Origin: Curtobacterium sp. MCPF17_052
GTDB lineage: Bacteria; Actinomycetota; Actinomycetes; Actinomycetales; Microbacteriaceae
Length of the DNA stretch: 64,000 bases
NCBI RefSeq assembly: GCF_003234085.1
Contig: NZ_QKSD01000002.1
Coordinates: 62,001-126,000, forward strand
Direction: 5' to 3'
Every line of letters starts with the position of its first letter. The first letter of the stretch is position 1. The translations under genes were made by a program, and so were the position numbers. Below the pieces are notes generated by a model. It was given only the letters and a program-made list of their open reading frames with translations, did no database searches and was not told the origin of the DNA. Shown here piece after piece: positions 53,631 through 60,489 of this stretch.

Positions 53631-53801
53631 TGACCACGGACCCTTTCGGGTTCCCTGCGTTCAGCGTCGGGGGACTTGACATGGGTCCTAGTGCTGCCCG
53701 GAACGGTAGGACCAGACGACGTGGGGGACTGCGGCGCTGGCCCTGGGCGGCGAGGGAAGGCCACGACCCCAGGAACGTGGCACGACGAGGAAGGTGATCG
53801 C

Positions 53802-55115
<1,314 letters not shown>

Positions 55116-55123
55116 GCCGACCG

Positions 55124-56386
55124 GTGCGTTTCGTGGTCCCGATCCTGGTCGGGCGGATCCTCCGTGCCCTCGCGCGAGCGCGGGGCGGCGGGTCCGCATA
55201 CCCGGGCTACATCGTCCTCAAGCTGGTGCCGGACTTCCTGCAGCACGTGACGCGGCAGTTCCCCAACGGTGTGGTCTTCGTGCTGGGGTCGAACGGAAAG
55301 TCGACGACGACCCACATGATCTCGGAGATCGTGCGGGCGCACGGTCTGCGGGTCTTCACGAACCCGTCCGGTGCGAACCTGCCGCAGGGCATCGCGTCGG
55401 CATTGCTGTCCCAGGTCTCGCTGGGCGGCAAGCTCAAGGCGGACATCGGGATCCTCGAGGTCGACGAGGCCTTCGCCGTCGAACTCGCCGGCATCCTGTC
55501 GCCGTCCACGGTGACGATGCTCAACGTCCAGGTCGACCAGCTCTACCGGTTCTTCGAGACCGAGCGGGTCGCGACGATGATGCTCGACACGGCCGCGCTG
55601 TCGACCGCGAACGTCATCACGAACCACGACGACCAGTTCCTCGACGCCTACGTGGCCGTCGACGGGCAACGGGTCCTGCGGTTCGGCGCGAGCACCGAGG
55701 TGGTCGCAGCCGCCCCGAACGGACTGCAGAACGCCGACGACTTCGTCGCCGCCGCCGACCGGGCACAGACGACCGCCGACGCCGAGATCGTGGCCTTCTC
55801 CGGGGACGGCGCCACCATCGCGTTCGCGGGTTCCGAGATCCCGGTCCGCCTGCCGGCCCGCGGCCTCCACTACGCGGTGGACGCCGCCGCTGCCGCCGCG
55901 ACGGCCAGTGCCGCACTGGGCGACCAGTTCCGTCCAGCCGCCGTCACCAAGGCGTTCGAGCGGATGAAGCCGGCCTACGGTCGCGGCGAGCGTCTGCCGA
56001 TCGCCGGTGAGTCCGCCGAGTTCACGATGTTCAAGAACGCCGCGAGCCTGCAGCTCAACCTCGACGCCCTGCCGGCGCACCCGGAGCAGGTCCTCATGGC
56101 GATCGACGAGGGCACGCCCGACATCTCCTGGATCTACGACATCGACTTCTCGAAGCTCGACCACGTCGACGTCGTCTCGGGCGACAAGGCCTGGCAGATC
56201 GCGATCGCCCTCGAGCACGCCGGTGTCCGCATCGGTCGTGTCGAGCCTGACGTCGAGTCGGCGATCCGGCACATGCAGGGCCTCGGCGCCACGACGACGG
56301 GCACGAAGAACTTCATCGTCAACTACGAGATCATGATGATCGCCCGGAAGGCCCTCGGCCACCCGGACATGGAGAAGACCGCATGA
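55124..56386 (+). CDS. murT: MurT-like Mur ligase family protein without zinc ribbon
   Basis: 420 residues. The Mur ligase P-loop FVLGSNGKSTTTHMIS is intact, the ligase middle domain follows, and the DUF1727 C-terminal domain has AYGRGERLPIAG and SWIYDIDFSKLDHVDVVSGD with the Asp that completes the triad in MurT-GatD. Canonical MurT has a four-Cys zinc ribbon in the middle domain; this protein has no cysteine at all. MurT-GatD normally amidates the alpha-carboxyl of D-Glu in lipid II. GTG 55124 starts six bases after the rpoD stop. It overlaps gatD by four bases. Confidence 0.88.
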   Translation: MRFVVPILVGRILRALARARGGGSAYPGYIVLKLVPDFLQHVTRQFPNGVVFVLGSNGKSTTTHMISEIVRAHGLRVFTNPSGANLPQGIASALLSQVSLGGKLKADIGILEVDEAFAVELAGILSPSTVTMLNVQVDQLYRFFETERVATMMLDTAALSTANVITNHDDQFLDAYVAVDGQRVLRFGASTEVVAAAPNGLQNADDFVAAADRAQTTADAEIVAFSGDGATIAFAGSEIPVRLPARGLHYAVDAAAAAATASAALGDQFRPAAVTKAFERMKPAYGRGERLPIAGESAEFTMFKNAASLQLNLDALPAHPEQVLMAIDEGTPDISWIYDIDFSKLDHVDVVSGDKAWQIAIALEHAGVRIGRVEPDVESAIRHMQGLGATTTGTKNFIVNYEIMMIARKALGHPDMEKTA

Positions 56387-57156
56387 CGGCCGATCGCCTG
56401 ACCATCCTGCACGTCTACCCGCGGCAGATGGGGGTGTCGGGGGACCGCGGCAACGTCGCAGCCCTCGTCCGTCGCGCCGCCACCGCCGACATCGTCACCG
56501 AGGTCGTCGAGTACGCCCCGGGCGACGAGTTGCCCTCGGCGGCCGACGTGGTGGTGGTGGGCAACGGACCGCTCAGCGCGATGCGCTCGCTCGGTACGGA
56601 CGTCACCCGGGTCGGTCCGGTCCTGCGCGACTTCGCGACCGCCGGGGTGCCGGTGGTGGCGGTCGGCGGCGGGTTCGACCTCGCCACGAACCAGGTCGTC
56701 CCGACCGACGGCGCCCCGATCGACGGCTTCGGCGTGTTCGACGCCCGAGCCGTTCGTGGGGCAGAGCGCCGTGTGAACTACCTCGTCCTCGAGTCGCGGT
56801 ACCCGCTGCTGCCGGGAGCGTCGACCCGGCTGGCCGGCTTCGAGGACCACGCTGCACGCATCGAGCTCGCCGACGGCGTCTCGCCGTTCGCGGACGTCGT
56901 CTCCGGTGGGGGCAACCAGGCCGGTTCGCCGGTCGAGGGTGCCGTCACCGGCAACTCGTTCGGCACGCACACGCAGGGGCCGATCCTGCCGCTCAACCCG
57001 CAGCTGACCGACGCCGTGCTCGCCGCGGCGACGGCCCGACTCGGCCGCGACTACACGCCGGACCCGGGTCGGACGGCGACGATCGACGAGTACGCACGTG
57101 AAGCCCGCGCCACGATCGACCGGTACGTCGACAAGGCGTTCAAGCGCATCGCGTAG
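56383..57156 (+). CDS. gatD: GatD-like class I glutamine amidotransferase fold, catalytic Cys and His missing
   Basis: 257 residues with the GatD framework (HVYPRQMGVSGDRGNVAALVRRA at the start, VVVVGNGPLS, and FGTHTQGPILPLNP). The nucleophile elbow that reads CGGYQ in Staphylococcus GatD reads GGGFD (residues 95-99), so the Cys is Gly. The catalytic His of GTYLHGP is Gln198 in GTHTQGP. There is no cysteine in the protein. Glutaminase activity is therefore not expected. The ATG overlaps the MurT stop (ATGA at 56383-56386), so the two are made as a pair. Confidence 0.88.
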   Translation: MTADRLTILHVYPRQMGVSGDRGNVAALVRRAATADIVTEVVEYAPGDELPSAADVVVVGNGPLSAMRSLGTDVTRVGPVLRDFATAGVPVVAVGGGFDLATNQVVPTDGAPIDGFGVFDARAVRGAERRVNYLVLESRYPLLPGASTRLAGFEDHAARIELADGVSPFADVVSGGGNQAGSPVEGAVTGNSFGTHTQGPILPLNPQLTDAVLAAATARLGRDYTPDPGRTATIDEYAREARATIDRYVDKAFKRIA

Positions 57157-58257: not shown

Positions 58258-58338
58258 GCTTCCTGCTTCTGCTGGTGAACCATGTGTATTTCGCCCGCGC
58301 CTCCGTGCCGTGTCGGCCATGCTCGGTACGCTCGTCAG

Positions 58339-60489
<2,151 letters not shown>

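Follow-up and report, generated by a model that had tools for sequence, protein, structure and literature searches.

The gene pair that lies between sigA and a parE-type gene in the window (the whole stretch of 64,000 nucleotides analysed here) encodes MurT-like and GatD-like proteins, the latter with a dead glutaminase site. We consider it probable, at about 0.7, that this Cys-less pair is an ATP-dependent ligase that begins the building of the type-B interpeptide bridge by joining an amino acid to the alpha-carboxyl of D-Glu, with GatD acting as a structural or amine-binding subunit. Microbacteriaceae typically have group-B peptidoglycan, which in Curtobacterium is a B2 wall with D-Orn, and the type-B bridge is attached to D-Glu at its alpha-carboxyl; to our knowledge, no enzyme has been assigned to the joining of a bridge residue to this carboxyl. 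The literature surveyed, consisting of titles and abstract openings with few subscription papers, likewise contained no Cys-less GatD in Microbacteriaceae and no named type-B bridge ligase. The analysis itself demonstrates the loss of residues of the glutaminase and of the ammonia gate, the retention of the ligase residues, the genomic slot, the exchange with a CofE-like gene, the nearby racemase-type genes and the anticorrelation with FemAB; from these we infer the reaction, its substrate, the identity of the amino acid and the role of GatD.

The slot in the window is composed of the following features:

53676..55115, + strand: sigA (primary sigma factor), bounding the slot on the left; Pfam Sigma70 regions 1.2, 2, 3 and 4
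55124..56386, + strand: murT-like ligase subunit, 420 aa, by Pfam and residue alignment
55286..55309, + strand: MurT P-loop GSNGKSTT (residues 55-62)
56383..57156, + strand: gatD-like subunit with a dead glutaminase site and a predicted GatD fold, 257 aa
56665..56679, + strand: GGGFD (GatD residues 95-99), replacing the catalytic CGxYQ
56974..56976, + strand: codon of Gln198, replacing the catalytic His, in the context FGTHTQGP
58282..60489, + strand: parE/gyrB-like topoisomerase gene, bounding the slot on the right; Pfam DNA_gyraseB

The two ligase reading frames share 4 nt, and at third codon positions their GC content (0.93 in murT, 0.91 in gatD) is similar to that of the adjoining sigA and parE. 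Open reading frames and alignment bear out what the sequence-only reading had described, namely GGGFD at GatD residues 95-99, Gln198 in place of His, the absence of Cys from GatD, and a MurT that keeps its P-loop and Asp region (DISWIYD); MurT is also free of Cys. In S. pneumoniae numbering, the window MurT keeps Lys59, Asn85, Glu110, Asp112, Glu113, Asn132 and Arg304 and has lost Arg135, Asp139, Asn270 and Asn273. At the site of the ammonia plug Tyr30, GatD carries Ser19, and at the site of the gate residue Arg135, MurT carries Val137. The Pfam matches MurT_C (35 bits), Mur_ligase_M (43) and GATase_3 (46) are all above cut-off, and the NCBIfam equivalogs are not reached, with 93.9 bits against a cut-off of 800 for MurT (NF045635) and 63.7 against 400 for GatD (NF045636). 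GatD, whose gene adjoins murT, has a predicted CobB/CobQ-like glutamine amidotransferase fold, and glutamine amidotransferases or their domains make up nearly all of the best 50 matches of each structure search. A second complete murT-gatD, part of what the sequence-only reading had said would refute its proposal, was found neither in the window genome (76.6% complete) nor in two other members of the genus whose genomes are 99% complete, since each yielded a single full-length MurT match.

To follow the dead site across the family, the window GatD was searched against 150 family genomes, giving matches in 114; 30 matches were loci, the rest were fetched, except for second pieces in G007, G077 and G090, and MurT and GatD were aligned. 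The catalytic Cys is absent from 100 of the 117 readable in-family GatD, the window's included, and its site is taken by Gly (65), Ala (18), His (8), Ser (4), Asn (3) or Thr (2); both Cys and His are present in the other 17. MurT_C picked out 65 loci in the order's other families; both residues are present in all 63 of their readable GatD, L311 and L324 having no GatD within the fetched stretch. Because Cys is gone from 100 of 117 sequences inside the family and kept in 63 of 63 outside it, its loss is neither chance nor sequencing error. Three loci are missing from some of these columns: L150, where no pair could be read, L105, which lacks a MurT frame, and L149, whose GatD was not read. Among the named loci, 25 of 26 GatD are readable and all 25 carry Gly at the Cys site, while L230 is unaligned and its motif lacks Cys. 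For the GatD nearest the canonical in-family ones, all 120 listed of 8000 matches have Cys and His, and the names, where given, are Leucobacter, Lysinibacter and Canibacter.

FastTree phylogenies of both proteins group the Cys-less pairs together, and a quick IQ-TREE analysis of 74 MurT needs two changes without rejecting one clade (p-AU 0.27); these pairs may have had a single origin or may have arisen through two changes. A pairing of Cys-less subclades with the diamino acid of the wall would at present be only a lead, for which the matches listed (120 of 700) provide Cryobacterium, Agromyces, Leifsonia, Glaciibacter, Microterricola and Luethyella among the named genera. Six small genomes identified through a MurT profile (G013, G027, G081, G095, G117 and G144) have MurT followed by a Cys-less GatD, whose open frame is just 187-224 aa in five of them. 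Short GatD of this length stand beside MurT at L343, L344, L346, L347 and L349, and Pfam returned no match for those of L344 and L346. One subclade (L140, L141 and L143-L148) has a GatD that reads FTHN where the Cys motif would be and GTSL(I/L)GP around the His position, and its MurT mostly retain the zinc-ribbon cysteines. We had considered loss of the MurT zinc ribbon as a second mark of the dead pair and dropped it as uninformative, since most of the canonical actinobacterial MurT examined also lack it, with no Cys in this stretch in 25 of 30 from other families and 13 of 17 from within the family.

Residue by residue, what was lost and what was kept divide between the two halves of the complex. 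Taking residue roles from the account of the S. pneumoniae MurT-GatD complex in PMC6085368, we compared 100 Cys-less pairs with 47 canonical ones (30 from outside the family and 17 in-family). The GatD Cys (0/100 against 47/47) is circular as a comparison, because its loss defines the group; the other residues are not. Tyr30, the GatD plug at the ammonia passage, is present in 0/100 against 47/47, Gly73, the middle glycine of the GatD oxyanion loop, in 4/100 against 47/47, and the MurT gate Arg135 in 9/100 against 47/47. The catalytic His is still present in 62 of the 100 Cys-less GatD. On the ligase side, Lys59 of the P-loop, Asn85, Glu110, Glu113, Asn132 and Arg304 are found in 100/100 Cys-less pairs, Asp136 in 99 and Asp112 and Arg140 in 98, and the asparagines on the adenine side are altered in common (Asp replaces Asn273 in 90, Tyr replaces Asn270 in 81). 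Judged by these residues, the ligase half is under full constraint and the ammonia half is gone.

The genomic position also separates the dead pair from the live one. In 71 Cys-less loci fetched with flanks of up to 3.5 kb, sigA was found in 65 and parE in 61, compared with sigA or parE in none of the 17 loci of canonical in-family pairs; the dead pair is thus a locus in its own right, as opposed to a copy of the live pair that has drifted. Live and dead pairs occur together in only 3 of the 150 family genomes (G054, G066 and G124). For named organisms, the slot was scanned with a gene upstream of sigA, and the best 80 of 105 matches included 67 Microbacterium-type loci (L182-L248). Within these 67 slots, the Cys-less pair occupies 16 and a CofE-like gene 51, with none holding both and none holding neither. 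The other 13 named loci comprise Labedella, Glaciibacter, Okibacterium and seven Cryobacterium, all of which hold the Cys-less pair. In two more, an uncultured contig and Leucobacter sp. L43, the sigA-parE gap of about 0.5 kb has neither ligase inside, and one further contig is cut.

The alternative occupant belongs to a different protein family. The CofE-like protein of L217 (258 aa) matches PF01996, the F420-0:gamma-glutamyl ligase family, with 48 bits, and the five best Foldseek matches of its model, whose mean pLDDT is only 75.7, are all CofE structures (2phn, E 7.5e-10). In 21 of the 22 named genomes selected (all but L234), whole-genome searches revealed the CofE-like gene without any MurT in 11 Microbacterium genomes and MurT without the CofE-like gene in nine genomes (six Microbacterium, Labedella, Glaciibacter and Cryobacterium); Leucobacter sp. 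L43 has one MurT, outside the slot, and no CofE-like gene. Among the 150 family genomes, 105 have the Cys-less pair, 17 a canonical pair (3 overlapping) and 23 a full-length CofE-like gene (2 overlapping), so that 126 have the Cys-less pair or the CofE-like gene; eight have neither MurT-GatD nor the CofE-like gene, and two are unclassed. The 105 include G032 (L149) and G099 (L105, MurT fragments), the counts of ligases and FemAB set aside G005 and G038, whose MurT is weak or partial, and the CofE count excludes a distant match in G147 (137 bits, outside the slot). The Cys-less pair is found in 2 of the 23 CofE genomes compared with 103 of the other 127 (Fisher 2.9e-11, with shared ancestry ignored). 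The two exceptions, and the only cases of CofE with a Cys-less pair among the 150, are G053 and G123 (L138 and L139), in which the CofE-like gene adjoins a very divergent Cys-less MurT-GatD in one operon. Less open to the objection of shared ancestry than this count is the pattern in nine genera that contain both alternatives, in different species (for G298 and G338, MurT was seen and GatD was not). In addition, sigA lies within the 1.5 kb flank of 19 of the 23 family CofE-like loci.

A CofE-like domain above 150 bits was also detected among 198 genomes of the order, in five genomes of the window family and 15 of other families. In those 15 (L352-L366), it forms the C-terminal part of a frame of 809-1016 aa, and MurT is absent from all 15 at E 1e-40. 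The N-terminal remainder is, according to Pfam, AsnB-type in L363 and degenerate AsnB-type in L352. The AsnB motifs MCG and LSGGLDS are both kept in 8 of the 15 (L363 and seven more) and both lost in 7 (L352 included, for which alone of the seven the AsnB identity comes from Pfam). Given these AsnB-CofE frames and the division of their motifs, the CofE ligase would seem to exist also in a glutaminase-tied and perhaps a glutaminase-dead form.

Racemase-type genes adjoin both ligases in many loci. Two alanine-racemase-type genes follow either ligase in 64 of the 67 Microbacterium-type loci, the contigs of the other three ending first. AlrA matches only the family's C-terminal domain in the two loci tested (L217 and L231), and across all loci with a match its PLP Lys is replaced in 76 of 77 readable sequences (by Arg in 72; 21 not readable); in AlrB this Lys is kept in 76 of 76 (23 not readable). 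This asymmetric pair may perhaps form a heterodimeric racemase with one active site that supplies a D-diamino acid. The presence of racemase-type genes next to the ligase would fit a bridge containing a D-amino acid. Both racemase genes are seen in just 11 of the 71 Cys-less family loci, and no racemase gene lies inside the window's slot. Elsewhere in the window genome there are two tandem full-length alanine racemase genes (G000:C1:24481-25967), both with KADAYGHG; with the PLP Lys intact, they would fit a need for a further D-amino acid. Six CofE operons of the named loci also encode the lipid II flippase MurJ (L200, L201, L207, L215, L226 and L234; identity by Pfam on L215 only), and a MurJ-type gene is likewise found in the CofE-like operons of L265 and L275.

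FemABX enzymes build interpeptide bridges, and their distribution runs opposite to that of the two ligases. FemAB (PF02388) is present in 26 of the 150 family genomes, including 10 of the 14 with only a canonical pair and five of the eight without any ligase. Altogether, it occurs in 15 of 22 genomes without the Cys-less pair or CofE-like gene compared with 11 of 126 with one of them (Fisher 5.6e-9, with shared ancestry ignored), and the PF02388 search found none in the window genome or its two same-genus relatives. FemAB is thus mostly missing where the Cys-less pair or CofE-like ligase is present.

The relation to wall chemistry is less simple than a loss of Cys and His that tracks type-B peptidoglycan, the link that the sequence-only reading had proposed to check; the wall types compared here are those of genus or species reports, not of the genomes analysed. 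Cryobacterium, reported with DAB and type B2gamma (PMC7033078), carries the Cys-less pair. Leucobacter is described as having a type-B cross-link with DAB (PMC4804768), and the named Leucobacter GatD retains both Cys and His, as a live pair would. M. galbinum and M. sufflavum are reported with D-Orn, and M. oxydans and M. algeriense are among the reference type strains said to have the same diamino acid (PMC10757982). In all four species the CofE-like gene is present and MurT is absent; they fall within the 11 named Microbacterium genomes that have the CofE-like gene without MurT. As regards presence in type-B and absence from type-A organisms, the Cys-less pair or the CofE-like gene is found in 126 of the 150 family genomes and none of the 63 readable GatD of pairs outside the family is Cys-less, but the single named Leucobacter genome searched, of a type-B genus, has neither of the two ligases. 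We therefore dropped the notion that Cys loss simply tracks type B, in view of the live GatD of Leucobacter and the many Microbacterium loci with a CofE-like gene instead. The broader proposal of that reading, that the pair has become a ligase whose amine is not ammonia and that GatD stays on as a non-glutaminase subunit, has strong indirect support from the lost ammonia source and gate, the kept ligase site, the CofE swap beside racemase-type genes and the FemAB anticorrelation; taken as a whole, the interpretation is partly supported.

Under the preferred reading, MurT would form an acyl phosphate on the D-Glu alpha-carboxyl of the lipid-linked precursor, as in live MurT-GatD, and the incoming amine would be an amino acid in place of ammonia, perhaps D-ornithine, perhaps glycine or some other residue of the bridge. 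With the amino acid thus joined the type-B interpeptide bridge would begin, and the CofE-like gene would perform the same job from an unrelated fold. GatD would neither hydrolyse glutamine nor gate ammonia, and would be kept as a structural and possibly amine-binding subunit; this role is the least certain step, although the persistence of GatD in genomes of 0.9-1.7 Mb indicates that it is not idle. Pocket residues specific to subclades, such as FTHN, would fit a binding site for different amines.

The main rival holds that the pair still amidates D-Glu, drawing on free ammonia with the glutaminase dispensable, and we regard it as unlikely. The intact acyl-phosphate site of MurT agrees with it, as does the assignment of partly amidated D-Glu in muropeptides of Clavibacter michiganensis, a type-B2gamma organism (PMC9603630), for which no locus was identified among those analysed. 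However, the gate and plug (MurT Arg135 and GatD Tyr30) have been lost together with the glutaminase, the same source describes the type-B bridge as starting at this very D-Glu (PMC9603630), the alternative in the slot is a glutaminase-free ligase beside racemase-type genes, and the FemAB anticorrelation would be left unexplained. Somewhat less probable still is that an amino acid or other amine is joined outside the bridge, for instance to cap the D-Glu of uncrosslinked subunits, or to another carboxyl. The same sequence evidence would fit such a ligase, and other actinobacteria are known to cap the D-Glu carboxyl with glycine; nevertheless, many loci have racemase-type genes next to the ligase, which points to a D-amino acid, and FemAB is mostly missing where the Cys-less pair or its CofE alternative occurs.

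It is very improbable, in our estimate, that GatD draws ammonia from another glutaminase or that the pair is a duplicate in decay whose live original sits elsewhere. The three family genomes with both live and dead pairs lend the duplicate some credit, against which stand the lack of a second MurT in the window genome and the two 99%-complete genomes of the genus, the presence of MurT catalytic residues in 98-100 of 100 pairs, and the survival of the pair in genomes of 0.9-1.7 Mb. The bridge-ligase reading has counterpoints of its own: eight of the 150 genomes lack both MurT-GatD and the CofE-like gene, 11 ligase-bearing genomes have FemAB, His remains in 62 of 100 Cys-less GatD, Leucobacter combines type B with a live GatD, G053 and G123 have both ligases, D-Glu is assigned as amidated in Clavibacter, and the window's slot is without the racemase genes, both of which are seen in so few Cys-less loci.

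Considering both ligases together, we lean, with slightly better than even confidence, towards a more general view: that the forms of MurT-GatD and CofE tied to a glutaminase (live GatD; the AsnB-CofE fusion) add ammonia to the D-Glu alpha-carboxyl, that those in which the glutaminase is dead or missing add an amino acid and thereby build walls of type B or with some other substitution, and that the latter, swapped repeatedly in one slot and often next to an asymmetric racemase pair, are the missing group-B bridge ligases. If the bridge-ligase reading is true, it would provide candidate genes for the group-B bridge ligase, an example of a glutaminase subunit that most of a family retains though its activity is gone, and two unrelated ligases that have repeatedly taken each other's place in one operon.

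Among known systems, the closest is the MurT-GatD lipid II isoglutaminyl synthase of S. aureus and S. pneumoniae (6gs2, 6fqb), which like the window pair is a two-gene operon and shares with it the Mur ligase middle and MurT_C domains, the ATP and acyl-phosphate residues and the GatD fold (predicted here). The window pair differs in lacking the catalytic Cys and the plug Tyr, in its changed oxyanion glycine and gate Arg, in its location in the sigA-parE slot and in scoring below the equivalog models. CofE, the F420-0:gamma-glutamyl ligase (2phn), is a relative of the slot alternative and also an amide-bond-forming ligase; although its fold and family are unrelated to those of MurT-GatD, the CofE-like gene shares with the Cys-less pair the same operon position and the same racemase-type genes. 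The FemABX enzymes are aminoacyl-tRNA-dependent and unrelated, and are mostly absent where either ligase is present. Finally, MurT relatives are described in pseudomurein archaea, including species with only a MurT-like protein and no GatD (PMC11915815); there GatD is absent, whereas in the window family it has been kept without its catalytic residues.
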